Source: Williamsia sp. CHRR-6 (GTDB lineage: Bacteria; Actinomycetota; Actinomycetes; Mycobacteriales; Mycobacteriaceae). From it: a stretch of DNA of 64,000 nt. The notes under the pieces were generated by a model. That model saw only the letters and a list, made by a program, of their open reading frames with translations, was not told where the DNA came from and did not search any database. The stretch covers positions 1,054,001 through 1,118,000 of the forward strand of contig NZ_JAHCSG010000001.1 in assembly GCF_018474015.1 (NCBI RefSeq). Reading direction: 5' to 3'. Positions 11,105-33,355 of the stretch are shown in pieces. Made by a program: the position numbers and the translations under genes. The stretch's first letter is position 1, and each line of letters begins with the position of its first letter.

Positions 11105-11267
11105 CTGAGACTCACTCTCGTATTTCGCCCCACCTACGGTTCACTACGCCTTAGATATCGAACGTTGATGCGAGAGGAACAACCTGCGGCGAACTTGGCC
11201 ATGCTTGCATGTGATCGGGATACAGTCTGGTTCAGCCCCGGCACCGACGCACACCAGAAAGTGGAAC

Positions 11268-14117
11268 GTGACTTCGATAGACGACTCAGCCCCCGCCTCA
11301 GGCTCAGTGTTGCTCATTCGCGATGAGGAATGGCTGGTCACCCGCGCCGAACGGGCGAGTGACGGCGAGTGGTTCGTCACCGCTCAGGGCGTGTCCGAAC
11401 TCGTCCGCGACACGTCCGCGACGTTCTCGACGGCGTTGGATGAGATTCAACTACTCGATCCCGCCGAGGCGCAGGTGGTGGGCGATGATTCGCCCGGGCA
11501 CCGGCGATCACGGCTCTGGCTCGAGGCGATGGCCCGCAAGACGGCGGTGCCCATCACGGATCCGACCCTGACCGTGGCCACCCGCGGTCTGGCGGACAGC
11601 CTGCCGTATCAGCTTGCCGCCGTGCGCAAGGCGCTGGCGCCCGACAACCTGCGCCCTCGCATCCTGCTCGCCGACGCCGTCGGGCTGGGCAAGACTCTCG
11701 AGATCGGGATGATCCTGGCCGAGTTGGTTCGTCGCGGCCGCGGCGAGCGCATTCTGATAGTCACCCCGCCTCACGTCCTCGAGCAGATGCAGTTCGAGAT
11801 GTGGACGCGGTTCGCGTTGCCCTTCGTCCGGCTCGACTCGCTGGGGATTCAGCGGATTCGCCAGAAGCTCCCTGGAAATCGAAACCCGTTCGCCCACTTC
11901 ACCCGCGTCATCATTTCGATCCACACGCTCAAGAACGACCGCTATGTCAGCCATCTGCGCAAACAGCACTGGGACGCCGTGGTCATCGACGAAAGCCACA
12001 ACGTCACGGGCGCCTCTCTGAACAATCGCCTCGCCCGCCTGTTGTCCACTCGCACCGACGCATTGATCCTGGCCTCGGCAACTCCGCACAACGGCCGCAA
12101 GGAGTCCTTCGCCGAGTTGATCCGCATGCTCGAGCCCAGCGCCGTCACGCCCAGCGGTGACCTGGTCGAGGAGGAGGTGCGGCGCCTGGTCATCCGCCGC
12201 CACCGGCACAGCCCGGAGGTGGCCGGCTACGTGGGAGGCGATTGGGCCGAGCGGCTCCCTCCGGACAACCAGGTGATCGCGGCATCTGCCATCGAGAACG
12301 AGATCGCCCGGGAACTCGACGAGGTGTGGCTGCACCCGTCCACCGGGAAAAGTCCCTATTCGGGCCCGAGTTCGTCGCTGTTCCCATGGACGCTCGTCAA
12401 GGCCTTCCTGTCCTCTCCCGCCGCGCTGGAGGCATCGGCGTCCGAGCGGCGTAAGCGCCTGGGGACCAATCTCACCGCCGCGCAGGAGCCTGAGAAGGCG
12501 GCGCTGGTTCGGCTGGAGGAGTTGGCTCGGCGAGGCCTGGTGGAGCCGAACGCGAAATACGACGCCCTGCGCGCACACCTCACCGATATCGGGGTCGGGA
12601 AGGGCTCACCGATGCGCGCTGTGGTGTTCGCCGAGCGTGTCCCCACACTCCACTTTCTGCGAGAGAAGTTGCGCAAGGACTTCCGGTTCGCCGCCAACGA
12701 GGTGGCGGTGCTGCATGGCGGGCTGACCGATACCGATCAGCAGGAGGTGGTGGAGTCCTTCAAGATGCAGTCCTCACCGATCCGGGTGCTCGTGACGGGC
12801 GATGTGGCCTCCGAGGGAGTCAACCTACATCTGCAGTGCCACAACCTGATTCACTACGACATACCCTGGTCCCTTATCAGGATTCAGCAGCGCAACGGCC
12901 GTGTGGATCGGTACGGGCAGAAGCACCCGCCGCGCATCACCACCCTGCTCCTCGACCCCGATGTGGAGAACTCGCTCGGTGATCTGAGAGTTCTGACGCG
13001 CTTGATGGAGCGCGAGCACGAGGCACACAAGGCCCTCGGTGATTCCGCGTCGTTGATGGGTAAGCACGACGTCAAGACCGAGGAGGACGAGATCCGCAAG
13101 GTCCTCGCCGGACAGCAGAGCTTTGACGAGACAGTCAAGGAGGTCCGTCAGGTAGGCGCGGGGGACAGCTTCGACGATCTGTTCGCGCGGTTGTTGGGTG
13201 GTGCGGACGAGGGCGCCCCCGGGGTGGTGAACGATGGCCCGTCCACGGTGTACGCGAGCGAGCTCGATTTTCTCGCCGACACCCTCAACGAGGTGTTGGA
13301 GACGCCCGGGCTTCCGTGGCCGGACGGTGTGTCGTGGAAGGACGAGCCCACGCACCAGATCGCCGATCTCACGCCATCACCGGATCTGCGCAAGCGCCTC
13401 GAGGTTCTCCCGCAGTCGTACATCAGCGACCGGGGCGTTACGGAGCGGCTGCGGCTCGCAACCACGCTGAGCCGGGGGCAGGCGTCACTCGATGCTGCAC
13501 GGGGCGCCGGGGAGCACACCCTGTGGCCGGAGGCCCACTACCTCTCACCCCTGCATCCGGTTGTCGAGTGGGCTGCGGACCGTGCCCTCGCGAAGCTTGG
13601 ACGCAATCAGGTGTTTGCGGTGCACGGTCCGGTCGACGAGGTGGCGGTGCTCCTGCACGGCACGCTGAGCAACCGACGCGGCCAGGTTGTGGCGTCCTCG
13701 TTTCTGCTGACGAGGTTCGTCGGGGGCGCGCCGGACCGGCTGGCGATCAGCGAGCCGCATCCGACTCTGCGCAGGGCGCTCGAGGCCCTCGGCATTGCGA
13801 GCAACCACGTCAATTCCGGTGCTCCCGCCGACCTCGAGGACCTGACGGCCTATGTCGGGCCAGCGGTTCGCGCGGCGCGCGAGACACTCACCGCGGTGGT
13901 CGATGCCGCAGAGAAGGACACCCGTGCCCGCGTGCAGGCGTGGGCGGATCGGGTGACGAGGTGGGACGACGAGGCCGATGCGCTGGTGCAGCGAACCGAG
14001 ATCCGGGAGCGACGCTCGCTGGTGGTCGGGGAGAAAGAGATCGCCGAGTCGCTGCTGCCTGATCAGCGACTGGTTCGCCCGCTTCTTGTAGTGGTTCCGA
14101 AGGGAGACGCTCAGTGA
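11268..14117 (+). CDS. drmD: SNF2-family helicase, DrmD-like
   Basis: A 949-residue superfamily 2 ATPase. Start GTG 11268 fits the first conserved residues ('TSIDDSAPASGSVLLIRDEEWLV'-type N-terminus); an in-frame ATG at 11205 is possible. From GTG, Walker A 'DAVGLGKT' is near residue 135 and the DEXH box 'IDESHN' near 240. The C-terminal helicase domain has 'AVVFAERVPTLHFLREKL', 'LVTGDVASEGVNLH' and the arginine finger 'QQRNGRVDRYGQ' near 540. A long C-terminal region follows. The arrangement with an overlapping adenine methyltransferase gene (ATGs and stops share bases 14114-14117) is that of class 1 DISARM, where DrmD is the SNF2 protein. It would act on invading DNA with the other DISARM components; the class assignment is by context and motifs. 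Confidence 0.85.
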   Translation: MTSIDDSAPASGSVLLIRDEEWLVTRAERASDGEWFVTAQGVSELVRDTSATFSTALDEIQLLDPAEAQVVGDDSPGHRRSRLWLEAMARKTAVPITDPTLTVATRGLADSLPYQLAAVRKALAPDNLRPRILLADAVGLGKTLEIGMILAELVRRGRGERILIVTPPHVLEQMQFEMWTRFALPFVRLDSLGIQRIRQKLPGNRNPFAHFTRVIISIHTLKNDRYVSHLRKQHWDAVVIDESHNVTGASLNNRLARLLSTRTDALILASATPHNGRKESFAELIRMLEPSAVTPSGDLVEEEVRRLVIRRHRHSPEVAGYVGGDWAERLPPDNQVIAASAIENEIARELDEVWLHPSTGKSPYSGPSSSLFPWTLVKAFLSSPAALEASASERRKRLGTNLTAAQEPEKAALVRLEELARRGLVEPNAKYDALRAHLTDIGVGKGSPMRAVVFAERVPTLHFLREKLRKDFRFAANEVAVLHGGLTDTDQQEVVESFKMQSSPIRVLVTGDVASEGVNLHLQCHNLIHYDIPWSLIRIQQRNGRVDRYGQKHPPRITTLLLDPDVENSLGDLRVLTRLMEREHEAHKALGDSASLMGKHDVKTEEDEIRKVLAGQQSFDETVKEVRQVGAGDSFDDLFARLLGGADEGAPGVVNDGPSTVYASELDFLADTLNEVLETPGLPWPDGVSWKDEPTHQIADLTPSPDLRKRLEVLPQSYISDRGVTERLRLATTLSRGQASLDAARGAGEHTLWPEAHYLSPLHPVVEWAADRALAKLGRNQVFAVHGPVDEVAVLLHGTLSNRRGQVVASSFLLTRFVGGAPDRLAISEPHPTLRRALEALGIASNHVNSGAPADLEDLTAYVGPAVRAARETLTAVVDAAEKDTRARVQAWADRVTRWDDEADALVQRTEIRERRSLVVGEKEIAESLLPDQRLVRPLLVVVPKGDAQ

Positions 14118-15793
14118 GCGCGAGCGATGCAATTCTGATCGGCGAGGGCTGGATCAGCGAGCACTACTTCACCACCGACGCCACCCGCCAGTCGTTCAAG
14201 GCCCGGGTGCTCGCGCGGCGCAAGATCTGGGAGGAACAGAAGGACACCGGATCGGTCCGCTCGCGCTTCACCGCTGTGCGCGGATCGCTACTGTCCCGGC
14301 TTGCGTCGCTGGACGACAACCCCGACCTCGCCACGGAGGTCCGCAAAGACCTGGTGGATGTTCTCGGCTACACCGCACTCGGTCTGAGCACCGTGGTCGC
14401 GGGGCCGGTGACCACCGTCCGGCAGGTGAGCCTCGCCGGCGGACCCGCCGTGGCGGTGGTCGCGGCGGTCCCGGTGGGGACGGCCGACGACCTATTGGAC
14501 AAGGATGTCGCCACCCTCGTCGAGCCTTACGACGTGGACGAGTCGACGCAGATCACGGCGGTCTCGCGGCTGCTCTCTGCCCTGTTCGTCACTGACGACG
14601 CACCGGACTTCGCGCTGGTGCTGGCGGGTCGGGTCGCGCTGGTTGCCGAGCGTGAACGCTGGCCCGAGGGCCGGTACCTGGCCATCGACCTCCAACTCGT
14701 CGGCGAACGCAACGACGACAAGAAGGGCGGCGAGATCGACACGGCCCTGGCATGTCTGTCGGCCGAGTCGCTTGCACCGGACGCCGAGGGCAACATCTGG
14801 TGGCACTCGGTGCTCGAGGAGTCCATCAACCACACCGTCGGTGTATCCCAGGACCTGCGCGAGGGTGTGCGCCTGTCCATCGAGATCATCGCCAACGATG
14901 TGGTGACCCGCCGAGCCGCCCGCGGTCTGGCCCCGCTGCCGAGTGAGCAGGCACAGCCACTGGCCATCCAGTCTCTGCGCTTTCTCTACCGAATCCTGTT
15001 CCTGCTCTACGCCGAGTCGTCGCCCGAGCTGGGCGTGCTGCCCACGGGCGCATCCGAGTACGAGCAGGGCTACAGCCTGGATCGGCTGCGCGACCTCATT
15101 CAGATCCCGCTCACCTCCCCGCAGGCAGAAACCGGCTCGCACCTATACGACTCCCTGGCCGTGCTGTTCAGGCTGGTCGACCGGGGATATGCGCCCACCG
15201 AGTCCGAAGAGGACGAGGGATTGCTCGAGGCGCTCACGTTCCGGCCGCTGCGGGCCGACCTGTTCCGCCCGGCCACCACAGCCCTCATCGACGAGGTCAA
15301 GCTGGGTAACGCTGAACTTCAGCGGGTGCTCCAGCACCTGCTGCTGAGCAAGGAGAAGCGGGGCAGCGATCGCGGGTTCATCTCGTACGCCGAGCTCGGA
15401 ATCAACCAGCTCGGCGCTGTCTACGAGGGGCTGATGTCCTACACAGGACGTTTCGCCGACACCGATCTCTACGAGGTGGCGAAAGGCGGTGACGGGTCGA
15501 AGGGCTCCTGGCTGGTCCCCATCGACCGTGCAGCCGGGATAGACGACAAGGACTTCGTCCGCCACGAGGACCCCATCACCAGCGAGCGCAAGCCGGTGTT
15601 GCATACGCGCGGCTCGTTCGTGTTCCGCTTGGCCGGGCGTGAGCGCCAACAGTCTGCGTCGTACTACACGCCGGAGGTGCTGACCAAGTTCACGGTGGGC
15701 CAGGCCCTCGAAGAGCTGTTGGACCAGGACGGCGCGATCACATCGGCCGGAGAAATCCTGAACATGACGGTTCGGGCGTTGAACCGGGGCTGA
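14114..15793 (+). CDS. drmMI: DrmMI-like DNA methyltransferase, N-terminal half (OFF orientation)
   Basis: A 559-residue product, starting with GTG 14114 that overlaps the end of the SNF2 gene. It is the long N-terminal region of a large class I adenine-N6 DNA methyltransferase: near the end come 'RERQQSASYYTPEVLTKFTV' and 'GEILNMTV', the lead-in to SAM-binding motif I. Motif I itself is missing. After NMTV the frame runs into 'RALNRG' and stops. The true continuation ('MTVCEPALGSGAFAIEAVR') begins at 19925 on the other strand. The break falls exactly on a 12-base repeat. As it stands the protein lacks the catalytic domain and cannot methylate. I read this as one state of an inversion switch, not as a random frameshift. 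Confidence 0.85.
   Translation: MSASDAILIGEGWISEHYFTTDATRQSFKARVLARRKIWEEQKDTGSVRSRFTAVRGSLLSRLASLDDNPDLATEVRKDLVDVLGYTALGLSTVVAGPVTTVRQVSLAGGPAVAVVAAVPVGTADDLLDKDVATLVEPYDVDESTQITAVSRLLSALFVTDDAPDFALVLAGRVALVAERERWPEGRYLAIDLQLVGERNDDKKGGEIDTALACLSAESLAPDAEGNIWWHSVLEESINHTVGVSQDLREGVRLSIEIIANDVVTRRAARGLAPLPSEQAQPLAIQSLRFLYRILFLLYAESSPELGVLPTGASEYEQGYSLDRLRDLIQIPLTSPQAETGSHLYDSLAVLFRLVDRGYAPTESEEDEGLLEALTFRPLRADLFRPATTALIDEVKLGNAELQRVLQHLLLSKEKRGSDRGFISYAELGINQLGAVYEGLMSYTGRFADTDLYEVAKGGDGSKGSWLVPIDRAAGIDDKDFVRHEDPITSERKPVLHTRGSFVFRLAGRERQQSASYYTPEVLTKFTVGQALEELLDQDGAITSAGEILNMTVRALNRG
15754..15779 (+). repeat. Inversion site A (within methyltransferase gene)
   Basis: GAACATGACGGT at 15760-15771. 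The right side continues TCGGGCGTTGAACC, identical to site B; the left side is methyltransferase coding sequence (GEIL). The spacer ATGACG (15764-15769) is flanked on the right by GTTCG and on the left by TGAAC, an imperfect inverted pair as expected for a tyrosine recombinase core site. Sites B and C on the other strand share the 12 bases. Confidence 0.75.
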
Positions 15794-17007
15794 AGGACGA
15801 CGCCGGGAAGTGGGACCTGCGGCCCCACGCCAGCCGAATCCAGGTCATCGACCAATCCGCCCTCAGTATCTGGCACGCGATCCTCGAATCCGACGCAGTA
15901 CCCGTCGGGCAGTCCCGCATGGTCTACACGGTCAACCGCTCCACCGCCGCAGTGCTCGACAAACTTGCTGCAGCGCCTCGGATCGGCGATCTGGGGTTGT
16001 TCTTCTCACCCGGCTGGCACGAGAAGAATGACCGGACTGAGGGCTACTTCGATGCAGAATGGGGTGTTCCTGAATCGTGGGATTCGGCTATAATTCAGGG
16101 GCCACATTTACACGTCGCGAATCCGCTCTACAAGCAGCCGAACCCGACGATGCTGAACAACAAGGATTGGACGAGCATCGACCTGGAGGCACTCGCCATC
16201 GATGCGATACCTGCCACTCAGTACAGACCGACGGGCAACAGTTCCGACTACGATGAGGCCTATACACGATGGTCCGTGACTGAGGGTTCGGTACCTGCGC
16301 GCCACTACTTTCGGATCGCGTGGCGGGCTATGGCGGCCAACACCGGCGAACGCACTTTGATCCCCGCGATCATTCCGCCGGGTACGGCGCACCCTCATAC
16401 AGTATCTGCCGTTGGCGGGCCGAATATTCCCCTCAAGCGCATCGTCGAGGCAGCGGGATTCATGACATCGATCATTGCCGATTTCGTGATCCGGGCGGTG
16501 CCAAAGTCGGGCATCCTCATGTCCTCAATAGACAAACTACCGATGGTGCCTGATGGGCCGTATTCTGAAGCAATCGTCGAACGTGTCCTCCGGCTCACCT
16601 GTTTGACCGCTGCATGGGCCCCCATGTGGGAGACAGTGACAAAGACTGAATGGCAGCCTACTGTCGCATGGCGCATCGCCCGTGACCGCCGCCTCGGCTT
16701 GGTGGAAATCGACGCCCTTGTTGCACGCGCACTACGCATCGGAATTGACGACCTTATCGGCATTTATCGATCACAATTCCCGGTTCTGAGAGGCTACGAT
16801 TTCGACGAGTACCTATTCGACGCGAACGGCCGACTTGTCCCACTCTCTATTCGACAATCGTGGAAACGAGATCCCTCAGCGGTGTCAACTCCTGCCGGTC
16901 GAACGTTCAAGCATCCCGGCTCCGGTCGCACGTACACCTACGAAACTCCCTTCGTCCATCTGGACAGGGAGGCTGACATGCGGAAGGCTTACAACGATTT
17001 TGGATAG
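15772..17007 (+). CDS. Silent target-recognition cassette 1 of the methyltransferase
   Basis: An open frame continuous from site A (from about 15763) to 17007; its first ATG is at 15919 (362 codons). The product 'MVYTVNRSTAAVLDKLAAAP' and onward is the C-terminal target-recognition part of the methyltransferase, homologous along its length to the end of the minus-strand gene: shared 'FDAEWGVPESWDS', 'KQPNPTM-NNKDWT', 'ANTGERTLIPA-IPPGTAH' and 'FPVLRGYD-DEYL'. Between these blocks the sequences differ strongly, as expected for domains reading different DNA sites. It has no start or catalytic domain of its own and is out of frame with the upstream half, so it is a silent cassette. It converges with the minus-strand copy, overlapping by 19 bases. 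Confidence 0.75.
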   Translation, partial: SGVEPGLKDDAGKWDLRPHASRIQVIDQSALSIWHAILESDAVPVGQSRMVYTVNRSTAAVLDKLAAAPRIGDLGLFFSPGWHEKNDRTEGYFDAEWGVPESWDSAIIQGPHLHVANPLYKQPNPTMLNNKDWTSIDLEALAIDAIPATQYRPTGNSSDYDEAYTRWSVTEGSVPARHYFRIAWRAMAANTGERTLIPAIIPPGTAHPHTVSAVGGPNIPLKRIVEAAGFMTSIIADFVIRAVPKSGILMSSIDKLPMVPDGPYSEAIVERVLRLTCLTAAWAPMWETVTKTEWQPTVAWRIARDRRLGLVEIDALVARALRIGIDDLIGIYRSQFPVLRGYDFDEYLFDANGRLVPLSIRQSWKRDPSAVSTPAGRTFKHPGSGRTYTYETPFVHLDREADMRKAYNDFG

Positions 17008-19925
17008 TTGCTGGCGGTAGCCTCGTATGCAATTCGCAGCTCCTCCTCGCGGTCGCAGTTGACGAACGGCAAGTCGTAAGTGTAGGCCGTCCCCGAGGTG
17101 GGATGCATCGAGGTTCGGGCGTCCACAGGGAATTCTTTCTCCGATGTCGGTTTGCCCGATTTCGTCCAATTCTGCCTGATTTCCACAGGCACTGGGCGAC
17201 CTCTTGAGTCATACAGATACTCGTCGCCGTCATAACCGCGCAACACGGGGAACTGGGTACGATAGATCGTCAGCAGGTCCTCCAAGGGAACGCCAAGTGC
17301 ATAGGCGACAAGTGCGTCGATTTCATTCTGAGCCACCCGTCGCTGGTGTGCTAGAAAATAGGGGACACCCATATCCCAGCTATTTCCGGACACATCCTCC
17401 CAGAACTCGGAATAAGCCTTGGTTAAGCAGTTCAGCCGTGCCACCTGCTCGGCAATTCGATCGCTCACGGGCCCCGAGGTCGCGACCATCGGTAACCGCT
17501 CTACGGTGCTCATCAAGATATCGGACTTCGGCACTGCTCGAACCAGGAAGTCCGACACCAACGAGGACAGGACACCGAGCACAACTGCCAGAATTCGCGA
17601 GTTCACCTCGGGGCCGCCGATCGAGGAGACGCGGTGAACATGAGCTGTCCCCGGAGGAATCAGCGCAGGGATCAGGGTGCGCTCGCCAGTGTTGGCCGCC
17701 CTGGTTCGCCATGCGATTCGGTAGGCGCTCCGGGGCGAAACGGTCCCGCCGTTGTTAGTCCACCTGCCATATGCACTGCCGTACATGGTGGCATCGCCGC
17801 ATGGCCGGTACTGCGTCACGGGGATCGCATCGACGGCAAGCGCCTCTAGATCGACCGGCGTCCAATCCTTGTTGTTCCGCATTGTTGGGTTCGGCTGCTT
17901 GTAGAAGGGCGTTGACACGTATAGGTGCGGCCCTTGGAGAATCACCGAATCCCACGATTCAGGGACTCCCCACTCAGCGTCGAACCGCCCTTTGCTTCGA
18001 TCGATTGTCTCATTCCACCCGATCGAAAGCTGGAGCCCGATCGCTCCGATCCTCGGCGCCTCTGCCACCCTTGACAAGACAGCGGCCGTCGCCCTATTGA
18101 CCGTATACACCATGCGGGACTGCCCGACGGGTACTGCGTCGGATTCGAGGATCGCGTGCCAGATACTGAGGGCGGATTGGTCGATGACCTGGATTCGGCT
18201 GGCGTGGGGCCGCAGGTCCCACTTCCCGGCGTCGTCCTTCAGCCCCGGTTCAACGCCCGAACCGTCATGTTCGAGTGAGCGTTCTACCGTGTCCGGGTGG
18301 TAGAGGGAGGTGGCCTGCAGGAATGAAACCACCTCGCGCGCAAAACCATAGACGTGCACCCCGTAACTCACGAGGTTATGGACTTCGAAGAGCGAGAGTT
18401 CATTGATGAACTGCCAATGTCTGCGCAGACGGCGGTAGGTGGCCGAGCGCAGCGGGCCTGCCTTCTCGTCGGTGAAGTGGGTTTCGGGGTGGATGAGACC
18501 GACCGAACCTGTTGATTTGGCATGGTCCCATGTTTGAGACATGAAGCTGCGGTATAAGTCGGGCGCCAACCCAGCCGTTGCTGGATACACGACTTCGCTG
18601 CCAAGGAACGCGGCGGTCGCTGCTACTTCACCATTGGCCTCACGTACCAGGGTTGCGACGCCAGGAGCGTCGAGGGCGAGCCTGCGGTGTGCGGCGTCCT
18701 CCCTTGCGGTCGACTTGGACTTCAGCTGCCACCAGGGATCACCCTCCGCAAGCAGGGCCTCGACGTCAGATCGCGGCCGCACCCACGGGGGATTTCCGAC
18801 CTGCAGGTCGAAGCCACCTCGGGAGAATACGGGGGCGAAGTCCAGCTCCCAGTGGAAGAAGCCCTGCTGCGCAGCCACGCGCTCCGCCGCCGCGAGCCAC
18901 GGATGCTCGTCCAACACCTTGGCTACATCACTCACCATGGCGAAACCAAGGTCGCTCTCCTCGGCGATGCCGAGGTCCTTCCAGTTCGCGGCGGAAGCGA
19001 GTGAGAGTTGCCCCAGCGGTTGCTTCCTCACGTTGCCGACGCGACCGAGGAGCTGCTGGAGGGTCTCGATCCACTCATCGAAGGATGGCGGCGCTGTCTC
19101 CTCGGTGAGCGGCCAGAACCACAGGGCGCACCAGGCGTCCATCACCCGACGGAGACGGCGATACGCACCGTTCGGGTCGGCGAGGCTCTGCTCGATCTGC
19201 TCGCGGGTCACCGCACCGCCCACGGGCAGATCGTCCGCCCCCCAGACCGCGATGGATCGTCGGATCTCACTCTCCGCGATCGACAGCCGGCGCCAGACGA
19301 GTTGCCAGAGCACCTCTACACGCCGACCGAGCCCCACCAGGGTGTCCACCTGCGCCTTGGTTGGCTGTACCAGCACCTGCTTGCGCCACTGTTTCAGCTT
19401 CTGCAGCTCCTCGGGCGCAAGTTCCTTGGCCTCCTTGGCGTTGATCGCCGAGCCCCACCCCTCTGCTGGAAGCAGGAAGTGATGGATGCCGCCACTGGCC
19501 GCGCCGTCCCTCCCTTCACTCACATCACCGGGAATGTCGCTGAGCGACAGGTCGTTCGGGACGGCCTTGAGCCAACCCCTTTTCTTCTCCACCACGAAGC
19601 GGGGGTAGATGGCGTGCCGTGCACCGATGAGCGAGTTGCCCCGGCGCAGATGCAGGCCGAACCAGGGTGCCTGCAGCCCTTCCATCATCGTGTCGAGCCA
19701 CAGCGAGATCTCGGCCAATTCGACTGCCGTGGAATTGAGGTCGACTCCGTAGACGTTGTGGAGGGCGAGGTACGCCTTCACCTTCTGCAGTTCCTTGGGG
19801 TACTCCTCAGGGTCGATGCGCTCACCCACCTCGTCCTGGCGCCGGGTGAGATACTCGGCCGCCAGTTGCCGCACCGCCTCGATGGCGAATGCGCCCGATC
19901 CCAGTGCGGGCTCACACACCGTCAT
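16989..19925 (-). CDS. DrmMI-like methyltransferase core and recognition domain (inverted)
   Basis: A 978-residue minus-strand frame that begins abruptly at SAM motif I ('MTVCEPALGSGAF'), with no N-terminal region. It has 'VYGVDLNSTAVELAEISLWL' and the catalytic motif IV 'VGNPPWVRP' (about 18780-18803), giving an adenine-N6 methyltransferase core. From about residue 470 it becomes the recognition domain, crossing site B at residue 552. The first codons NMTV are shared with the end of the plus-strand half at 15761-15772, so reversing the segment would give one protein of about 1528 residues with an intact motif I. There is no ribosome binding site or likely promoter at 19925, so it is probably not translated in this orientation. 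It is not decayed: no stop or frameshift over 2.9 kb. Confidence 0.85.
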   Translation of the reverse strand: MTVCEPALGSGAFAIEAVRQLAAEYLTRRQDEVGERIDPEEYPKELQKVKAYLALHNVYGVDLNSTAVELAEISLWLDTMMEGLQAPWFGLHLRRGNSLIGARHAIYPRFVVEKKRGWLKAVPNDLSLSDIPGDVSEGRDGAASGGIHHFLLPAEGWGSAINAKEAKELAPEELQKLKQWRKQVLVQPTKAQVDTLVGLGRRVEVLWQLVWRRLSIAESEIRRSIAVWGADDLPVGGAVTREQIEQSLADPNGAYRRLRRVMDAWCALWFWPLTEETAPPSFDEWIETLQQLLGRVGNVRKQPLGQLSLASAANWKDLGIAEESDLGFAMVSDVAKVLDEHPWLAAAERVAAQQGFFHWELDFAPVFSRGGFDLQVGNPPWVRPRSDVEALLAEGDPWWQLKSKSTAREDAAHRRLALDAPGVATLVREANGEVAATAAFLGSEVVYPATAGLAPDLYRSFMSQTWDHAKSTGSVGLIHPETHFTDEKAGPLRSATYRRLRRHWQFINELSLFEVHNLVSYGVHVYGFAREVVSFLQATSLYHPDTVERSLEHDGSGVEPGLKDDAGKWDLRPHASRIQVIDQSALSIWHAILESDAVPVGQSRMVYTVNRATAAVLSRVAEAPRIGAIGLQLSIGWNETIDRSKGRFDAEWGVPESWDSVILQGPHLYVSTPFYKQPNPTMRNNKDWTPVDLEALAVDAIPVTQYRPCGDATMYGSAYGRWTNNGGTVSPRSAYRIAWRTRAANTGERTLIPALIPPGTAHVHRVSSIGGPEVNSRILAVVLGVLSSLVSDFLVRAVPKSDILMSTVERLPMVATSGPVSDRIAEQVARLNCLTKAYSEFWEDVSGNSWDMGVPYFLAHQRRVAQNEIDALVAYALGVPLEDLLTIYRTQFPVLRGYDGDEYLYDSRGRPVPVEIRQNWTKSGKPTSEKEFPVDARTSMHPTSGTAYTYDLPFVNCDREEELRIAYEATASNYPKSL
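18253..18278 (-). repeat. Inversion site B (within recognition region)
   Basis: Minus-strand copy of the core; spacer ATGACG at 18263-18268. Here both arms pair: CGAAC-ATGACG-GTTCG. It is read in frame as LEHDGSG within the methyltransferase recognition region. Its downstream side matches site A and its upstream side matches site C. Confidence 0.75.
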
Positions 19926-19935
19926 GTTCGAGTGA
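19910..19935 (-). repeat. Inversion site C
   Basis: Minus-strand copy of the core; spacer ATGACG at 19920-19925. The upstream side is identical to that of site B (cassette fragment ending LEHDG); the downstream side is methyltransferase motif I coding sequence. The join of unrelated partners exactly at the core marks it as a product of recombination with site A. Confidence 0.75.
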
Positions 19936-20178
19936 GCGTTCTACCGTGTCCGGGTGGTAGAGGGATGTCGCCTGTAGGAAGGAAACTCGCCCTCGGTCGT
20001 CCGAGTAGACATGAATTCCGTAGGTAACGTGGTTGTCGATCTCGAAAAGCTTGAGTTCGTTGATGAACTGCCAGTGCCTGCGTAGCCGCCGGTAGGTGGC
20101 CGAGCGCAGCGGACCGGCCTTCTCGTCGGTGAAGTGGGTTTCGGGGTGGATGAGTCCGACCGAACCTGTTGGACGGCG
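19926..20178 (-). pseudogene. Silent recognition-cassette fragment
   Basis: About 246 bases (19928-20172) repeat the stretch 18271-18516 of the minus-strand methyltransferase. Conserved: 'TGSVGLIHPETHFTDEKAG', 'RHWQFINEL', 'SLYHPDTVERSLEHDG'. Diverged: 'LKLFEIDNHVTYGIHVY' against 'LSLFEVHNLVSYGVHVY' and the next dozen residues. At site C the frame ends LEHDGV then stop. Joined to the sequence right of site A, it would read on in frame as LEHDGSGVEPGLK into cassette 1. It is thus the front end belonging to cassette 1, parted from it by the inversion. Confidence 0.75.
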
Positions 20179-20206
20179 TAGGCGGCCTTGGCAGAAGCTG
20201 GGTTCC

Positions 20207-21046
20207 ATGAACAACACCGACATCGGCCCAGCGTGGGCGAAAGAGATCGAGTCCTGGCGTGTCGCGATGAACGCTATGCGTCTGTCCCCGCAGACAATTG
20301 AGCTCCGCACCTACCACCTGCGCAGACTTGCGGGAGCAAATCTGGCGGCCACTCCATGGCGGGTTACTCGAAGCGAACTGCTGGAATGGACAGGGCAGCA
20401 CGATTGGCGGCGTGAGACGGCGCGGGCGGTCCGGTCGTCCTTCCGTCGATTCTGGGCATGGGGTGTCAGTACCGGGCGCACCACCGACAACGTGGCGGAG
20501 GTGCTGCCGATGGTCCGGCCCGAGCAACCGCTGCCACGCCCGGCCGCACCGTCGACGGTCGTCAAGGCCATGAGGGCCGTGGATTCCCGCGTGGGCTTGA
20601 TGGTGCGACTGGCCAACGAACTGGGGATGCGCCGCGGGGAGGTTGCGCAGGTGCATCCGGAGAACGACATGGTGCAGGAGTCCGGGGGGTGGGCGCTGGT
20701 GGTGCACGGGAAGGGCTCTCGCACGCGCATCCTGCCGCTCCCGGACGACATCGCGGCGCTGCTCCGGACAGCGCCGGCAGGCTACCTCTTCCCGAGCCCG
20801 ATCGGCGGGCACCTGTCGCCCCACTGGGTCGGCACCCTCGTTTCCCGGGCGCTCTCCGACGGCACCACGATGCACCAGCTCCGTCATCTGTGCGCCACCG
20901 AGGTGCACCAGCAGACCCACGATCTACGGCTCGTGCAGACCCTTCTGGGCCACGCGTCGCTGGCGACCACCCAGCGGTACGTCGCGGTGGACGACGACAA
21001 GATGCGCGAGGCGTTGGCAGCTCGTTCCCGGCGGTGGCACATGTGA
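20207..21046 (+). CDS. Tyrosine recombinase (phage-integrase family), probable inversion enzyme
   Basis: A 279-residue tyrosine recombinase of XerC/D size. Start ATG 20207 (MNNTDIG). An N-terminal SAM-like core-binding domain (about residues 10-95) is followed by the catalytic domain with all expected residues: Arg in 'LGMRRGEVA', Lys in 'VHGKGSRTR', 'HQLRH' (HxxR), 'LGHASL' (His) and the nucleophile Tyr in 'TTQRYVAVD'. It sits directly beside the outermost inversion site C and cassette fragment, and upstream of the helicase gene (58 bases between). Recombinases of this type drive inversion of hsdS cassettes in type I restriction systems and pglX in some BREX loci. Here the position strongly suggests it flips the methyltransferase segments. 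Confidence 0.85.
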   Translation: MNNTDIGPAWAKEIESWRVAMNAMRLSPQTIELRTYHLRRLAGANLAATPWRVTRSELLEWTGQHDWRRETARAVRSSFRRFWAWGVSTGRTTDNVAEVLPMVRPEQPLPRPAAPSTVVKAMRAVDSRVGLMVRLANELGMRRGEVAQVHPENDMVQESGGWALVVHGKGSRTRILPLPDDIAALLRTAPAGYLFPSPIGGHLSPHWVGTLVSRALSDGTTMHQLRHLCATEVHQQTHDLRLVQTLLGHASLATTQRYVAVDDDKMREALAARSRRWHM

Positions 21047-21104: not shown

Positions 21105-24100
21105 GTGAGCGAGCTACTCCCCGGCGTACAGGCGCCAGTAGTCCAGGACGGAATCCTGGATTACCTGTCCACCACGTTCGCTCTCGCCGACGAAGAGGCG
21201 CGCCTCTCGCTCGCGGAGTTTCTGGCCGACCGCGCCAATGGCATCTTCAAGGGCCCCTACCTTCGTCTGCGGCTGCCGTTCAAGGCGGCCGCAGACGGTT
21301 GGCGTGACAGCCTGGAGTGGTATTCGGGCTTCCCGCCGTACGGGCATCAGGCCAGGGCTTTCGCCCGGCTGAGCAGCCTCGATGTCGGCGAGGCGAAGCC
21401 TCGACCGCTGCCCACGCTCGTCACCACCGGGACCGGCTCGGGCAAGACCGAGGCATTTTTGTACCCGATCATCGATCACGTGCTGCGCGCGAAAGAGCGA
21501 GGCGTGACGGGCATCAAGGCGCTCATTCTCTACCCCATGAACGCGCTCGCCAACGACCAGGCGCAGCGCCTTGCCTCGATTCTGACGTCAGATGACTTAC
21601 TTGCCGGTGTGACGGCCGCGATCTACACCGGAGAGCAAGGATCACAACGGTCCAAGGTGTCCAGTGATGGGCTGATCACCCGCCGCGACGTGATTCGCAG
21701 CGATCCGCCGGACATCCTGCTCACCAACTACAAGATGCTCGACCAGTTGCTGCTGCGCGACTCCGACGCCGAGATCTGGGCCAAGAGCGCCACGAGTCTG
21801 CAGTACCTGGTGCTCGATGAGTTCCATACATACGACGGTGCGCAGGGCACCGATGTATCGATGTTGCTGCGGCGCTTGGGAATCGCACTCAAATCGTATT
21901 GGCCGACCGAGTTGTTCACGGAGGCGGATCGGGTGCGGCCGCTCGGTGTCATCACCCCTGTCGCAACATCGGCCACCCTCGGTGACAAGGGTGACCCGTC
22001 CGCGATGCTCGAGTTCGCCGGCACGGTGTTCGGCGAAGAATTCGATGAGTCTGCCGTCGTCACGGAATCCCGACTGACCGTGGACGAGTGGGCCAAGGAC
22101 ATCTCGACGCTCGACGCGCGCACCGACCGAGAAGCGATCGAGACCACGGTGGAGCGCGCGTCGCTGCTCACCGATGGTCGACAGATCGCCGAAGCGGTAT
22201 TTAGCAGCCTGTTCGTCACCGCCGACGGTGGAACTCCCGCCCTGAACCAGGCGTCTGCGGACGAATTGCTTTCTCTGGCCAAAGCTCACCCGTTCACACG
22301 CACGCTGGCCACTGCCGCGGAGCAGGCGCAGCCACTGGGTGTGCTCATCGATGCCATCCTGCCCGCGTTCGCCGTCGATGAGCGCAGCCGCGCTGTGGCC
22401 GAGCAGTTCGTGCTGCTGTTCGCCTCGGCGCTGAGCCATGTCCGCAAGGTCGTCGGGCGCGACGCGCTCTCGGTGGATCTGCACCTGTGGGTGCGTGAGC
22501 TGAGCCGGATCGACCGCGTCGCGCTCGGCACACCGCAGTACCTCTGGTCCGACGACACCCACCTCGGTGACATCGGCGCCGACGGCAGCGGCATGGGCGC
22601 TCTGGCGTTCCCCGCGATCTTCTGCCGACACTGCGGCCGATCGGGTTGGGCCGTGATGCGCGCACCGGTGGGCGGATTCGACCTCAGTGCCGCCAATTCG
22701 AGCGACATCCGACGCGGCCGCCTCGCAGGCAACCACGAGTTTCGCGCTCTCATCCACGCACCGAGCGAGGCCGAGCAGGAGGCGCTGCTCGATGTTCCCG
22801 TGGCGCGGGATCGTGACGAGCCGAAGCTGATGTGGTTCCACACCGCCGAGCGTCGCGTGGTCGCCGAACGCCCGGAAGACGACGCCGAGTCGGCCGCGAG
22901 CCGAGTGCTTCCCGTGCTTGTGCACAACGGACCGTCGGCGGCAGAGTTCTCCACCAACGACACCTGCCCATCGTGCATGCAGAAGAACGGGATTCGCTTT
23001 CTCGGCTCGGCCATCGCCACCTTGCTGTCGGTCGGCCTGTCGACGATCTTCGGCAGTGACGAGCTGGACAAGGTGGAGAAGAAGGCCCTCGTCTTCACCG
23101 ACAGCGTGCAGGACGCCGCGCACCGCGCCGGGTTCGTCCAGAGTCGCTCGCACAGCCTCACCCTGCGAGCGGTGTTGCGCGGCGCGGTGGGAGACGATCT
23201 GGTGAGCCTCGATCTCCTCGTCGACCGAGCCATGCAGCAGGCCGGCGACGATCCGCACCTGCGCTATCGCCTCATCCCACCGGATTTCGCCGATCGCGCG
23301 GAGTTCGACGACTTCTGGCGACGCGCGAAGCAGAGCCAAGTGCCCGCGAAGGTGCGCACCCGCGTCAAGCGGCGCCTACTCCTCGACACCGTTCTCGAGT
23401 TCGGGCTCCAAGCTCGGCTCGGTCGCACCCTCGAACTCACCGGAAGCCTCGCCGTCGAGGTCGACATCTCGCGGGAGGTGATGCTCAAGGCCGCGCGGGA
23501 GGTCCACCGCGTGGTCGGGCCTGAGGCGTTCGAGGGCCTCGGTGCCACCGACGCCCAGCTCGTCGGTTGGGTGCGCGGCGTCCTTGAACGGATGCGCACC
23601 GACGGTGCGATCGAGCACGAATGGTTCCGCACCTATCAGCGCGAGGACGGCCGCCGCTATTCGATCTGGGGTGGTCGCCCACGCTCGGACGGCATGCCCG
23701 CCTTCCCGCGAGGCCGGGGCGCTCCGGCGTACCCCCGAGTGGGTGGTGGCGGTGGTGCCCGGGACAGCGATCTGATCTCGGTGGGATCGTCGAAGAGCTG
23801 GTACGGCGTCTGGACTTCGCGCATCCTGCACTGCACCGCGGGCGAAGGTGCGTCGCTGGCCGTGACACTTCTGGACCAACTGGCCTCGCTCGACATCATC
23901 AATGTGGTCAACACGAATTCGGGCGGGAAGGTCTACGAGATCCCCCAACAGAGCATCCTCGTGGGACCGGTCGGCGACGACGGCTACAGCCGCGGCGACC
24001 ACCTCCTCGAATGCGAGGTGTGCCGCTCCGCAGTGCCGGGCACCCGGCGTGTCGTCGACGAACTCGTCGGCGGCCCCTGCTTCGTGCTGCGGTGCACCGG

Positions 24101-27100
24101 CGCGCTCGCTCGGACCGGCGGCCGCCCCGACAACTTCTATCGGCGGCTGTACCGAGCCTCCGAGATCACTCGCGTCGTGGCCCGCGAACACACCAGCCTG
24201 CTCGACGATGCGATCAGGCTCGATTACGAGAACCAGTTCAAGTCCAGTTCCGAGAACCCCGAAGCGCCCAACGTTCTCGTTGCTACCCCCACCCTCGAGA
24301 TGGGTATCGACATCGGGGATCTGTCCACCGTCATGCTCGCCTCCCTTCCGAAGAGCGTCGCGTCCTACCTGCAGCGAGTGGGCCGCGCCGGACGGCTGAC
24401 CGGAAGTGCGCTCAACCTCGCCTTCGTCTCCGGTCGCGGCGAGCAACTCCCACGACTGGGCGACCCGCTCTCGGTGATCAACGGGCAGGTGCGACCCCCG
24501 GCCACCTATCTCGACGCCGAGGAGATTCTCCGGCGGCAGTACATCGCCGCGGTCGCCGACCAGCTTGCCCGCCGAGTCGACGCGCCGCACCCCGCGTCCG
24601 CCCGGCAGGCCATCGGTGTGATCGAACCGGGCAGTTACCTGCACACGATCATCGAGTCGGCCGAGAGCAGCGCGAGCCTGGAGCCGTTCCTCGCCTCGTT
24701 CGACTCGTTGACCGAGCAGGCGCAGGTGCGGCTCAAGCAGTGGGTCACACCGGCCGCCGGTCCGCTGTCGAGCGAGTTGTCGGTATACCTCCACGAACGC
24801 CGTCACCTGTGGGCGAGCCAGGTGGAGTCCCTCGAGCACCGGGTACACGAGATACAGGCGAGTTTGCCCGAGTTGCAGGTGCGGGCCGATCTGCCAGCCG
24901 CAACCGATGACGACAAGGTGGCCCTGCGGACCGCGAAGGCTGCCCTCGCGCTGGCGAGGAGGCAGCTGGCCGACCTTCAGGGGGAGTACTGGATCGGCGT
25001 GCTCGAGCAGCACGGAATCCTGCCCAACTACACGTTGCTCGACGATTCGGTGACCCTGGACGTGACCCTGAGTTGGATCGACCCGGACACCCAGGAATAC
25101 AGGTCCGAGCCCGCCACATTCGACAGGGGCGCCTCCTCCGCGCTGCGCGAATTCGCCCCCGGCGCCACGTTCTACGCTCGCGGCTTCAAGATCCAGATCG
25201 ACGCGGTCGACCTCGGTTCCGACGGAGATTCGATCGAGCGTTGGGCCTTCTGCCCGTCGTGCGGGTACGGCAAGCACCTCGAGCAGGGAGACCCGCCCTC
25301 GTCATGCCCGCGCTGTGGCGCCGTGGGGATCTCGGATGTGCGGCAGATCCTCGACGTGGTCGAGCTGGAACGTGTCTCATCAGCCATGCGGCGCGAGGAG
25401 GCTGCCATCGACGACGGCCGCGACGAACGCGATCGCGTCAACTTCCAGATCGTCACCGCCGCCGATGTGGACACCCCGCGTCACCAATGGTTCGTCGAGA
25501 ACTATCCGTTCGGGCTCAAGCACCTCTCCAACATGACGATTCGATGGCTCAACATCGGCAAGATGTCCGAATCGGGGTCGGGTCACCGACTGCTCTCCGG
25601 CGAGGAGTACAACGCGGCACTGTTCCGTGTGTGCACCGGCTGCGGCAAGCTCGACGGCCGCACCGGACAGAACCTGCCCTCCGAGCACCGGCCCTGGTGC
25701 AAGCACCGCAACGCCGTCGAGGAAAACGTGCGACAGGTGGCGCTGTCGCGAACACTGCGCACCGAGGCCGTGGTGATCCAGCTGCCCGCTGTCATCTCCA
25801 TCGGAGATAGGTTCGCCGTACCCAGCCTGCTCGCCGCTCTCCAGCTGGGTTTGCGTGAGCACCTGGGCGGAGCGCCCGACCACCTCGCGTTCGAGCGGAT
25901 CATCGAGCCTCACCTCAGCGACGGCACAGAGAACCGCGAAGCGCTGCTGATCCACGACACCGTGCCCGGTGGCACCGGCTACCTCGCCGAACTGGCCGAC
26001 CCGATCAAGTTCTACGCCCTGCTCCACCGCGCGTGGCTGCTCGTTCGGGACTGCCCGTGCAAGGACGAGGGCCGCGCATCGTGCCACCGGTGCCTGTCGC
26101 CCTACATCAACAGCTACACCCAGAAGTGGGTCTCGCGGGCGTCCGCAGAGCGGCACCTGAGGACGATCCTGCTCTCCGGCGCGGCGGAAGGAGAACCGAG
26201 CGAAGGATTCGGATGGACGGTAACCGAAACGGCGACCGTCCCCGCGGATCAGGAGACGCACATCGAGCAGAAGTTCCGCACCGTCCTCCACACCCGGCTG
26301 ACCAGGGGTCTCGGCGCGAGTGTGCACGAGCAACCCGGTCCCAACGGCAACCGCTGGACAATCAACCCCGGCGGTGGCCGCACCTGGGTTCTCGAGCCTC
26401 AGCTCGGCCTCGGCCCGGTCAAACCCGATTTCGTGCTCTACAGCAACGACCAGAGCATTCCCCGTGTCGCCATCTTCTGCGATGGCTGGCAGTTCCACGC
26501 GAGTCCGGTGATCAACCGCATCGCCGATGACGCCACCAAGCGCGCCGCTTTGCGCGACCGAGACTACGTCGTGATCGGTCTGACGTGGCAGGACCTCGTC
26601 GACGCAGAATCGGACGCAGCCCCGCCGCCACTCTGGTTCTCCGAGCAGCGCTGGACACGCACCATGGCCGAGACCGCCGGAACGCTCAATCCGGGTCACG
26701 TCGAGCTGGTCAAAGGTGGTCCTGTCGACTACCTCGTGCGGTGGATCAGCAACCCCGATCCGAAGGGAATCGCGGCACTCGCCGAGGCCCTTCCACTCCT
26801 GCTGGTCGGTGCCGGACCGTACGGCAAGGCCGAAGCTGCCCGACGGTTGCTGGATCTAACCACGGCGATACACGACGGCGGAACCCTGCCGACCGACGGC
26901 GACCGCCATGTGTGGGGTTGGCAGCACGACACACTCACGGTGCTCGCACGCACTGTCGCCGCGATAGGGCGCGACACCGAGGTGGCCGTCCTCCTCGACG
27001 ACCGTGACAGCCGTCTGGGCCAGAACCACAAGAGCGCGTGGCGTGAATGGATTCGGCTCGCCAACCTGCTCAACTGCCGCCAACAAATCGCGCACATCAC

Positions 27101-27434
27101 GACGCGAAGTCTTGCCGAGTCGATTCCGGCGCAGGCGGCCCCCGGCGGTGTCGAGTTGGCCGAACCGTGGGCGACGCTCTATCGGTCGGCCCTGACCGAC
27201 GCGGAGAAGTCGTTGATCGCACTCCTCGCGAGCACGGGAGCACCCGCCCCATCGGTGGGATTCGAGACCCCGAGCGGCTTGCCTCTCGACATCTCTTGGC
27301 CGGAACACCGCATTGCCGTCGACATCGACCTGGCGGATGACGACCGTAGTGAGTTGAGTGCCGATGGTTGGACGATCATTGACGCCGACCTGACGACAAT
27401 CCTGTCCACACTGTCTGCAGCGGGAGCCGACTGA
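21105..27434 (+). CDS. Giant DEAD-like helicase with DUF1998 and Vsr-like nuclease domain (DrmA/DrmB-like)
   Basis: A 2109-residue protein; GTG 21105 is preferred since the in-frame opening from 20643 only overlaps the recombinase. Helicase motifs: Walker A 'TGTGSGKTEAF' (about residue 107), 'LDEFHTYDGAQGTD' (about 237), 'VATSATLG' (about 286), then after a long insert 'ATPTLEMGIDIGDLSTVM' and 'QRVGRAGRLTG' (about 1065-1100). Zinc-type Cys pairs occur at 'FCRHCGRSG', 'CPSCMQ', 'FCPSCGYG...CPRCG' and 'VCTGCG'. Residues 1510-1670 are a DUF1998 (MZB) module ending 'GGTGYLAEL' and 'CPC-------CHRCLSPY'. Residues 1715-1835 resemble a Vsr-like endonuclease ('KPDFVLY', 'VAIFCDGWQFH'). DISARM has separate DrmA helicase and DrmB DUF1998 proteins; here they may be fused. 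It overlaps the next gene by one base. Confidence 0.8.
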   Translation: MSELLPGVQAPVVQDGILDYLSTTFALADEEARLSLAEFLADRANGIFKGPYLRLRLPFKAAADGWRDSLEWYSGFPPYGHQARAFARLSSLDVGEAKPRPLPTLVTTGTGSGKTEAFLYPIIDHVLRAKERGVTGIKALILYPMNALANDQAQRLASILTSDDLLAGVTAAIYTGEQGSQRSKVSSDGLITRRDVIRSDPPDILLTNYKMLDQLLLRDSDAEIWAKSATSLQYLVLDEFHTYDGAQGTDVSMLLRRLGIALKSYWPTELFTEADRVRPLGVITPVATSATLGDKGDPSAMLEFAGTVFGEEFDESAVVTESRLTVDEWAKDISTLDARTDREAIETTVERASLLTDGRQIAEAVFSSLFVTADGGTPALNQASADELLSLAKAHPFTRTLATAAEQAQPLGVLIDAILPAFAVDERSRAVAEQFVLLFASALSHVRKVVGRDALSVDLHLWVRELSRIDRVALGTPQYLWSDDTHLGDIGADGSGMGALAFPAIFCRHCGRSGWAVMRAPVGGFDLSAANSSDIRRGRLAGNHEFRALIHAPSEAEQEALLDVPVARDRDEPKLMWFHTAERRVVAERPEDDAESAASRVLPVLVHNGPSAAEFSTNDTCPSCMQKNGIRFLGSAIATLLSVGLSTIFGSDELDKVEKKALVFTDSVQDAAHRAGFVQSRSHSLTLRAVLRGAVGDDLVSLDLLVDRAMQQAGDDPHLRYRLIPPDFADRAEFDDFWRRAKQSQVPAKVRTRVKRRLLLDTVLEFGLQARLGRTLELTGSLAVEVDISREVMLKAAREVHRVVGPEAFEGLGATDAQLVGWVRGVLERMRTDGAIEHEWFRTYQREDGRRYSIWGGRPRSDGMPAFPRGRGAPAYPRVGGGGGARDSDLISVGSSKSWYGVWTSRILHCTAGEGASLAVTLLDQLASLDIINVVNTNSGGKVYEIPQQSILVGPVGDDGYSRGDHLLECEVCRSAVPGTRRVVDELVGGPCFVLRCTGALARTGGRPDNFYRRLYRASEITRVVAREHTSLLDDAIRLDYENQFKSSSENPEAPNVLVATPTLEMGIDIGDLSTVMLASLPKSVASYLQRVGRAGRLTGSALNLAFVSGRGEQLPRLGDPLSVINGQVRPPATYLDAEEILRRQYIAAVADQLARRVDAPHPASARQAIGVIEPGSYLHTIIESAESSASLEPFLASFDSLTEQAQVRLKQWVTPAAGPLSSELSVYLHERRHLWASQVESLEHRVHEIQASLPELQVRADLPAATDDDKVALRTAKAALALARRQLADLQGEYWIGVLEQHGILPNYTLLDDSVTLDVTLSWIDPDTQEYRSEPATFDRGASSALREFAPGATFYARGFKIQIDAVDLGSDGDSIERWAFCPSCGYGKHLEQGDPPSSCPRCGAVGISDVRQILDVVELERVSSAMRREEAAIDDGRDERDRVNFQIVTAADVDTPRHQWFVENYPFGLKHLSNMTIRWLNIGKMSESGSGHRLLSGEEYNAALFRVCTGCGKLDGRTGQNLPSEHRPWCKHRNAVEENVRQVALSRTLRTEAVVIQLPAVISIGDRFAVPSLLAALQLGLREHLGGAPDHLAFERIIEPHLSDGTENREALLIHDTVPGGTGYLAELADPIKFYALLHRAWLLVRDCPCKDEGRASCHRCLSPYINSYTQKWVSRASAERHLRTILLSGAAEGEPSEGFGWTVTETATVPADQETHIEQKFRTVLHTRLTRGLGASVHEQPGPNGNRWTINPGGGRTWVLEPQLGLGPVKPDFVLYSNDQSIPRVAIFCDGWQFHASPVINRIADDATKRAALRDRDYVVIGLTWQDLVDAESDAAPPPLWFSEQRWTRTMAETAGTLNPGHVELVKGGPVDYLVRWISNPDPKGIAALAEALPLLLVGAGPYGKAEAARRLLDLTTAIHDGGTLPTDGDRHVWGWQHDTLTVLARTVAAIGRDTEVAVLLDDRDSRLGQNHKSAWREWIRLANLLNCRQQIAHITTRSLAESIPAQAAPGGVELAEPWATLYRSALTDAEKSLIALLASTGAPAPSVGFETPSGLPLDISWPEHRIAVDIDLADDDRSELSADGWTIIDADLTTILSTLSAAGAD

Positions 27435-31495: not shown

Positions 31496-31608
31496 ATCCT
31501 TACTTTCGTTCAAGCTGACAGATGGTCAGGTTTTCACGCCGCCCGAGGACCATCAGGTAGTTGCGCCGTCTTTCGGGCTAGCGAACTGAGCGTTGCCGGT
31601 TGAATTCC

Positions 31609-32730: not shown

Positions 32731-32850
32731 GGAACACACATTAGGACAGACAACTGACAAACCGGGCGGGAATGCCGACCCCAGCCACCACGGCCGAAGC
32801 CAACCGCAGGTTTCTGGGGTGCAAACGTTGTGGCTGGTATTGGCGGGCGG

Positions 32851-33065
32851 GAGTACCGCTTTCATGACCACGATACCAATCTCGGTATCGCAGAACCTTT
32901 GCGGCGCTTGCGATATGAACTTCGGGCAGTTGTCCAGGCGCAATACCCGGGGCGGACCACCCACAGGTCGAACCCTGTGTCGAGTTCGTCGATCAGTCGG
33001 GCGGCGGAGATGGACCGGTCCAGGATGTCCGGATTGACCACAATGTCTTCGAGGCATCGGCCTCA
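32851..33065 (-). pseudogene. IS3-type transposase (rve domain) remnant
   Basis: Minus-strand pieces of an IS3 OrfB integrase domain in two frames: 'DRSISAARLIDELD' (about 32985-33025) and 'PPRVLRLDNCPKFISQAPQR' (about 32895-32955; usual form LRMDNGPEF-SQAL). The frame change and altered catalytic region show decay. Confidence 0.6.
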
Positions 33066-33355
33066 ATGTGACGAGCCAAACCTCTGACCGACGAGTCAAC
33101 GGGGTTGCTGGGTCCGGACTTGGGGGCCATCCTCGACCCAGACACGAATGGATCTTCTTGTTGACCACCATCGCCCGCTATTAGCGCAGGTCGGCGTCAG
33201 GGTTGGCCGCGGTCTGCGCGATCGAAGTCCAGGCTTAGGCCGCGCCCGCAGACGGCGTCGGCGCGGGGTGCAGGGGTGTCCGCCTAAGCCATCCGGTCAA
33301 CGCGAATGAGCGCGCTAGGGCGAAGACCGCTACGCAACGTAGCCATTCATAGATC

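Follow-up and report, generated by a model that had tools for sequence, protein, structure and literature searches.

What took apart the methyltransferase gene of a defence operon in Williamsia sp. CHRR-6, and what does a recombinase do beside it? The stretch of 64,000 nucleotides analysed here (the window; contig NZ_JAHCSG010000001.1, positions 1,054,001 to 1,118,000) carries four defence genes, armA to armD, of which the methyltransferase gene armB lies in two pieces on opposite strands next to a gene for a tyrosine recombinase. Comparison with related loci makes it likely, in our judgement, that this is an ARMADA Type II operon with a recombinase-driven switch of armB cassettes, and that in this genome armB was split when a third site recombined.

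The N-terminal half of armB (14114..15771, plus strand) is read in a frame of 559 amino acids (14114-15793) that in the present orientation ends with NMTVRALNRG and a stop at 15793. A minus-strand frame of 978 amino acids (19925-16989) contains the catalytic part (18261..19925), with the sequences CEPALGSG and NPPW, which we take to be S-adenosylmethionine (SAM) motif I and motif IV, fused in frame to a C-terminal cassette of 423 residues (cassette 2, 16989..18260, minus strand); Pfam detects an Eco57I domain in this open reading frame (ORF; 1.5e-14). The two frames correspond to residues 1-555 and 553-1523 of a single PADLOC model, PDLC03611 (1532 residues), and reversal of 15764-19925 in silico yields one frame of 1528 residues from 14114, exactly as proposed in an earlier sequence-only reading of this DNA. 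Because the halves match one model and the flip restores a single frame, the break falls within one gene, and armB is recognizable as one methyltransferase gene split by an inversion at SAM motif I.

The C half is present in 65 of 401 genomes of the family, the window's own included (E-value of 1e-30 or better). Unbroken homologues of about 1530 residues, for which the sequence-only reading had suggested a search, do exist: an open frame long enough for the N half crosses the break point in all 64 other genomes, a count taken from reported open-frame lengths and not from a gene-by-gene reading. Since the frame crosses the break point in 64/64 relatives, the split armB is a derived state. At least two of these 64 genes are broken elsewhere, at residue 229/234 in genome G307 and at 554/557, the cassette junction, in G142; a break at the position called site A below is found in the window genome only. 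In G142 (locus L033, about 9693-9702), where armB has no close recombinase, the frameshift at the cassette junction lies beside a TTTTGGGG run and could be due to slippage, decay or a sequencing error.

The joins of the inversion lie in a 12-base core, GAACATGACGGT, which occurs three times in the window, at 15760-15771 (plus strand), 18261-18272 and 19918-19929 (both minus strand). The sequence-only reading had correctly placed the first and last copies and attributed the split to an inversion between them, which stands; it overlooked the third copy. The core belongs to a 20-bp site with 7-bp imperfect inverted arms and the 6-bp spacer ATGACG, and is shaped like a tyrosine-recombinase site. 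Site B (18256..18275, minus strand; CTCGAAC-ATGACG-GTTCGGG) marks the boundary between the catalytic part and cassette 2. The two others are recombined: site A' (15757..15776, plus strand; CCTGAAC-ATGACG-GTTCGGG) has its left half from a site A in SAM motif I and its right half from a site C, and site C' (19913..19932, minus strand) reads CTCGAAC-ATGACG-GTGTGTG. Past site A' comes C-terminal cassette 1 (15772..17007, plus strand), with 411 residues after EHDG, now silent, of which an internal ORF of 362 amino acids matches residues 1166-1525 of PDLC03611. Upstream of site C the end of the catalytic region is present a second time, as a silent duplicate (19930..20171, minus strand; direct repeats D1/D2, aligned to 19929-20171).

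The loci of relatives begin on the plus strand with the N half, followed by motif I, the catalytic part, site B and a cassette; next come a cassette, site C and the duplicate on the minus strand, and finally the recombinase gene on the plus strand. The order in the window is exactly this one after a single A x C inversion. The N half, the catalytic part, both cassettes and the recombinase gene are all still open frames in the window, and because every piece is still open, the A x C event appears to be recent or reversible. An assembly artefact joining two copies could be suspected, given that several relatives have contigs that stop within these repeats and that the window junctions are known from assembled sequence alone; yet only 12 bp are shared at site A, for which an assembler would presumably need real spanning reads, and both junctions are consistent with one single inversion, making an artefact very improbable.

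Which defence system contains this gene? The gene order armA-armB-armC-armD matches ARMADA Type II, with the recombinase gene placed between armB and armC. ArmA (11205..14117, plus strand, 970 amino acids) is a BrxHII/DrmD-like SNF2 helicase (PADLOC DrmD 5.6e-83, a DrmA-labelled model 6e-57, BrxHI/BrxHII 3.3e-55). ArmB matches PglX weakly (4.4e-05), DrmMI at 2.6e-24 and the IIG model PDLC03611 over its full length. ArmC (21105..27434, plus strand, 2109 amino acids) is a YprA/DruE-like helicase (PADLOC DruE3 2.3e-85; Pfam DEAD, Helicase_C and MZB), whose seven best PADLOC matches are all DruE, a proximity to Druantia given by matches and not by a tree. ArmD (27434..29659, plus strand, 741 amino acids) is a GajB-like UvrD helicase (PADLOC NERD+UvrD 9.9e-33, GajB 2.8e-21; Pfam UvrD). 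ARMADA Type II is described as a BrxHII-like helicase ArmA, a PglX-like methyltransferase ArmB, a YprA-like helicase ArmC nearest to Druantia, and a GajB-like helicase ArmD with a RelE-like N-terminus (PMC12458937), and it is this type that the predicted proteins of the operon best fit.

The label 'DISARM-like', attached to armB by the sequence-only reading, does not survive this comparison. The NCBIfam profile DISARM_DrmD gives 302 bits on ArmA against a cut-off of 610, the match of ArmC to DrmA is at most 3.8e-19 in PADLOC and below the NCBIfam cut-offs, and the downstream helicase is DruE-like, i.e., of Druantia/ARMADA kind. The PADLOC families listed for 19 proteins of the window include neither DrmB nor DrmC, though a weaker match is possible in ArmA, ArmC and ArmD, the three proteins for which the list gives the best 25 of 37, 46 and 37 families. 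We therefore rejected membership in DISARM. In the ARMADA II system of Escherichia coli, deletion of any of the four genes abolishes protection (PMC12458937), and the present split-armB state is therefore expected to be OFF: by this analogy, no full ArmB can be made in the present orientation and the defence is probably silent.

The recombinase gene (20207..21046, plus strand, 279 amino acids; Pfam Phage_integrase 4.2e-18) looks intact, as the sequence-only reading had stated: R143, K169, H223, R226, H249 and Y258, presumably the catalytic residues, are invariant in four orthologues (alignment A1). Its nearest solved relative by profile is Gp33 (5vfz; 5.2e-19), which we take to be the integrase of phage Brujita, and 159 phage records contain relatives, none of which reaches 60% identity; 156 of these records are named as Mycobacterium or Gordonia phage. 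The eight ARMADA-linked recombinases form one group in a tree of 18 rows (support 89/86, under the starred threshold). The protein looks like a phage integrase turned switch enzyme. Among the 64 armB-bearing genomes of the family, seven have a match to the recombinase profile at 1e-30, and only three of those seven (G026, G130 and G269) contain a closely similar recombinase (1e-168 or better). Further kin of the recombinase occur in L042, L043, L044, L046 and L047; neither genome of the first two has an armB match, nor do the examined stretches of the other three. The kin in L044 and L046 (55-56% identity) lie near the packaging-type gene phrog_2666, and that of L044 also near the minor-head-like gene phrog_5863. 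A search of IMG/VR returned one distant recombinase, 21 stretches with one site match each, and no armB relative.

Orthologues of the recombinase (67-72% identity, tblastn) are encoded upstream of armC in seven other actinobacterial loci; the distance to armC is 2.2 kb in the Prescottella locus and no more than 0.6 kb in the other six. Skermania sp. ID1734 (L031/L040) has armB, the second cassette, the recombinase gene and armC on one contig (L040), and G269 (L032) likewise carries the recombinase gene upstream of armC. The armB gene lies on another contig in Prescottella subtropica (L035/L045, armB on L036), in Mycobacterium sp. ST-F2 (L039/L094, armB and the second cassette on L087), in the metagenome-assembled genome (MAG) Propionibacteriaceae Gx481_bin159 (L038/L089, armB on L088), in Galbitalea sp. 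SE-J8 (L041/L093, armB on L090) and in G1035 (L082, armB on L092). In several of these genomes the repeat interrupts the contigs, as would be expected of short-read assemblies. In all seven loci armB is unbroken at motif I, as it is in G1074, where the recombinase gene is unlinked and which is not counted; G1074 (L048/L091) was dropped as a recombinase locus, its recombinase contig ending inside the gene and the neighbours being phage-like by eye.

An inverted second cassette, whole or partial, is present in six of the seven recombinase-linked loci; in Gx481_bin159 just its first 32 residues lie beside the recombinase gene. Two site copies, each before a C-terminal cassette, were found in five loci (Skermania, G269, Mycobacterium ST-F2, Galbitalea and the Propionibacteriaceae MAG), although in Galbitalea and the MAG each copy is on a contig of its own. 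The Prescottella locus has one readable copy, the active one, together with a second-cassette fragment without a site, and in G1035 there is only the duplicate piece, the contigs ending before the site. The duplicate beside the recombinase gene, of about 87 codons, has its first codon at residue 467-470 in every one of the seven loci except Prescottella.

Genome-wide, only four places lie within three mismatches of the 20-bp site, three of them in the window locus. Inverted copies of this short recombinase-like site occur together with a linked recombinase gene. The stretch CTCRAACAYGAYGGTTC, at the L-E/K-H-D-G-S codons of armB, is present in the window and in 6/6 readable recombinase loci, and both copies are identical over it in the 5/5 loci where both are readable. 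Among same-residue pairs of the seven sequences with a recombinase, the same codon is used in 86/116 cases at the site (0.74) and in 157/322 in the flank (0.49); in the recombinase-free set, 12 sequences found by peptide pattern, the corresponding fractions are 115/315 (0.37) and 322/894 (0.36). Codon conservation is raised at the putative site in the set with the recombinase and not in the set without. A near-match in armC at 25526 (plus strand, 16/20) and another at G000 C8:41003-41022 (17/20) may be chance or secondary sites. The weak hairpin at site B (z -1.35) was not used as evidence.

This conservation also bears on the reading that the cassettes of relatives are exchanged by RecA-dependent recombination across long repeats, with the recombinase left over from a phage and taking no part. 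Such repeats do surround the site (about 440 bp in total in the window, and one arm of 970 nt in L031). A single recombinase group is nonetheless linked to eight loci in several genera, the short-site codon conservation is raised alongside it, and A and C share only 12 bp. That length of identity is too short for RecA. The pneumococcal spnIII locus is reported to recombine without a known site-specific recombinase (PMC6620402), which speaks for the RecA route, a reading that we nevertheless consider improbable.

The exchanged part comprises the last 360-460 residues of ArmB. Four cassette pairs share 61-83% identity over the aligned length. Two variable blocks, at about residues 60-100 and 200-260 between near-identical stretches, are clearest in the Skermania and Mycobacterium ST-F2 pairs; the pair of G269 has the same first variable block, with divergence continuing beyond the second, and the window pair, identical over its first 40 residues, is more divergent throughout (61% identity). 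The C-terminal position and the two variable blocks fit a target-recognition domain. In PglX of BREX, the target is recognised by the C-terminal domain (PMC11341690), and by this analogy the cassette may be the target-recognition part of ArmB.

It was thus most likely for switching specificity that the ancestral device served. Within armB, site B directly follows the catalytic part, and site C, inverted, lies downstream, before the silent second cassette. A domesticated phage-type tyrosine recombinase would act on the 20-bp site, and B x C inversion would swap the C-terminal cassette so that the enzyme alternates, on the PglX analogy, between two DNA specificities. In view of the third core and the cassette pairs of relatives, we rejected a simple two-site ON/OFF switch. 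The ON/OFF proposal of the sequence-only reading keeps this much, that the split is probably an OFF state; the conserved sites B and C of relatives would swap cassettes, and site A was found in this genome alone. In the window genome the recombinase most likely also joined site C with site A, at the N-M-T-V codons before SAM motif I, and this inversion would have parted the N half (plus strand, 559 residues) from the catalytic part and cassette 2, left on the minus strand without a start. That the recombinase was the agent, that the inversion is reversible, that it changes specificity and that it costs the cell its defence we infer; the split, the three cores, the two open cassettes and a B/C site conserved in recombinase-bearing relatives can be read directly from the genomes.

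Is site A, then, a programmed switch or an accident? Rebuilt from the present junctions, it read AATCCTGAAC-ATGACG-GTGTGTGAGC before inversion, with a good left half-site, an exact spacer and a poor right half-site. The chance expectation of an exact core in the 3.3 kb of N and catalytic parts is about 4.5e-4 under a second-order Markov model. The core is absent from this position in all eight other genomes checked (the seven with a linked recombinase and G1074), and 35 homologues (36 loci were tried, of which L012 gave no motif) match 4-9 of its 12 bases there. The residues at site A are rare as well, N and M each occurring in 1/35 homologues, in different genes. Among 27 distinct recombinase-free genes (L012 dropped), the best sense-strand match to the window core is 10/12; for one of three other core variants, two of the 27 reach 11/12. 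When seven armB genes with the recombinase, that of the window included, were scanned against their own cores, the window reached 12/12, Skermania 11/12 and the others 8-10, whereas in 400 trials with permuted cores at most 1/7 genes reached 11/12 or more, against 2/7 observed. The Skermania match (L031, armB offset 1898), in the catalytic part and with its own spacer, is a possible second pseudo-site; it was not counted as a second OFF site, two of the 27 recombinase-free genes also reaching 11 for that core. Site A is unusual by these comparisons, yet armB codons do give rise to weaker near-sites. Strand exchange, which can replace spacer bases, could also account for some of the identity at site A.

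That only 12 bp are identical at site A might suggest a plain microhomology-mediated inversion in which the recombinase took no part. The other break point, however, coincides with the very site at which the recombinase set shows codon conservation, and the spacer and left arm of site A fit a recombinase site, so that we regard this explanation as quite improbable. We think it more likely that site A is a pseudo-site which arose by accident than a selected switch, and the conserved-switch reading appears weakened by its absence in 8/8 other genomes and by the 4-9/12 matches of homologues.

It is nevertheless conceivable, if doubtful, that site A was selected as an ON/OFF site within a three-site circuit, in which B x C picks the specificity and A x C switches methyltransferase and defence. 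Its 12/12 match with identical spacer, the perfect half-site CCTGAAC, which is an arm in several relatives, and the separation of the pieces without decay would all fit a selected site, as would the rarity of N and M, the ceiling of 10/12 in recombinase-free genes and the outcome of the permuted cores. Against it stand the 0/8 other genomes with the core at site A, the poor right half-site (GTGTGTG) and the 2/27 recombinase-free genes at 11/12 for another variant. Judging from the orientation of the sites, site A would also carry the risk of an irreversible deletion of armB, by A x B when ON and by B x C' when OFF. Slightly more doubtful still is the complete scheme, in which one recombinase serves all three sites, A x C inversion at SAM motif I makes the methyltransferase, and the entire defence with it, alternate between OFF and ON, and the cassettes stay exchangeable in the OFF state through A' x B.

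Several observations weigh against an ARMADA Type II operon with a recombinase-driven cassette switch. The N-terminal 149 residues of ArmD have no Pfam match, so that its expected RelE-like part did not find confirmation. A profile search with the C half matched no solved structure, and the target-recognition role of the cassette is drawn by analogy. G255 (L102) keeps 15/17 site bases with neither a close recombinase nor a second cassette. The state of the window is known from one assembled genome in a single orientation, and the activity of the recombinase and the target specificities of the cassettes are predictions. The ARMADA locus of G255 is unbroken and is perhaps a locked descendant.

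Other genes of the window surround the operon. Upstream of armA, 5332-9276 (minus strand) encodes a 1314-residue UvrD-like helicase with a C-terminal PD-(D/E)XK nuclease domain. Downstream, the defence island continues over 29732-38733 (minus strand), with a HEC-05/GmrSD_N gene at 29732-31513 and two genes for Leo-type dynamin-like GTPases at 33356-34933 and 34930-38733, the second apparently a LeoBC-LeoA fusion. A cytochrome P450-reductase fusion is encoded at 44762-47962 (minus strand).

Inversion within a coding sequence, recoding or truncating it, is common to armB and to the intragenic invertons and gene-altering programmed inversions reportedly described by Chanin in 2024 and Milman in 2023. 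Inversion of pglX is known in Lactobacillus. Phase variation of pglX in BREX/Pgl systems (PMC9122589) has in common with armB a defence methyltransferase of the PglX family switched by mutation or rearrangement; armB belongs to a different defence system, and its site and recombinase are common to several genera. In phase-variable Type I restriction-modification systems, a recombinase drives the inversion of hsdS, as for pneumococcal hsdS with PsrA (PMC4948785, PMC7096588). Recombinase-driven exchange of the target-recognition parts of a methyltransferase would be shared with these systems, whereas in armB the catalytic and putative recognition parts form one polypeptide within a helicase-based defence system, and in the window the break falls right on the catalytic motif.

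The name ARMADA dates from 2025, Type II being a defence of four genes. Among the matches listed in our literature searches there was no report of inversion-driven phase variation in ARMADA or DISARM, and to our knowledge no phase-variable ARMADA has been described before. The words 'inversion' and 'phase' have 0 occurrences in the main text of the ARMADA preprint (PMC12458937). The three-site circuit, if true, would make this the first phase-variable ARMADA known to us, and a specificity switch that can also be set to OFF. A linked recombinase and exchangeable cassettes in a set of actinobacterial ARMADA operons would make target specificity phase-variable, a moving target for phages, and the OFF state of one genome suggests that such a machine can silence the defence in one step. 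It also becomes testable whether the self/non-self mark of ARMADA is read through the C-terminal part of ArmB, the two natural cassettes being ready-made test alleles. With ARMADA Type II as described in that preprint, the window shares gene content and order, but it has in addition a second C-terminal cassette, which is inverted, and a tyrosine recombinase gene placed between armB and armC.

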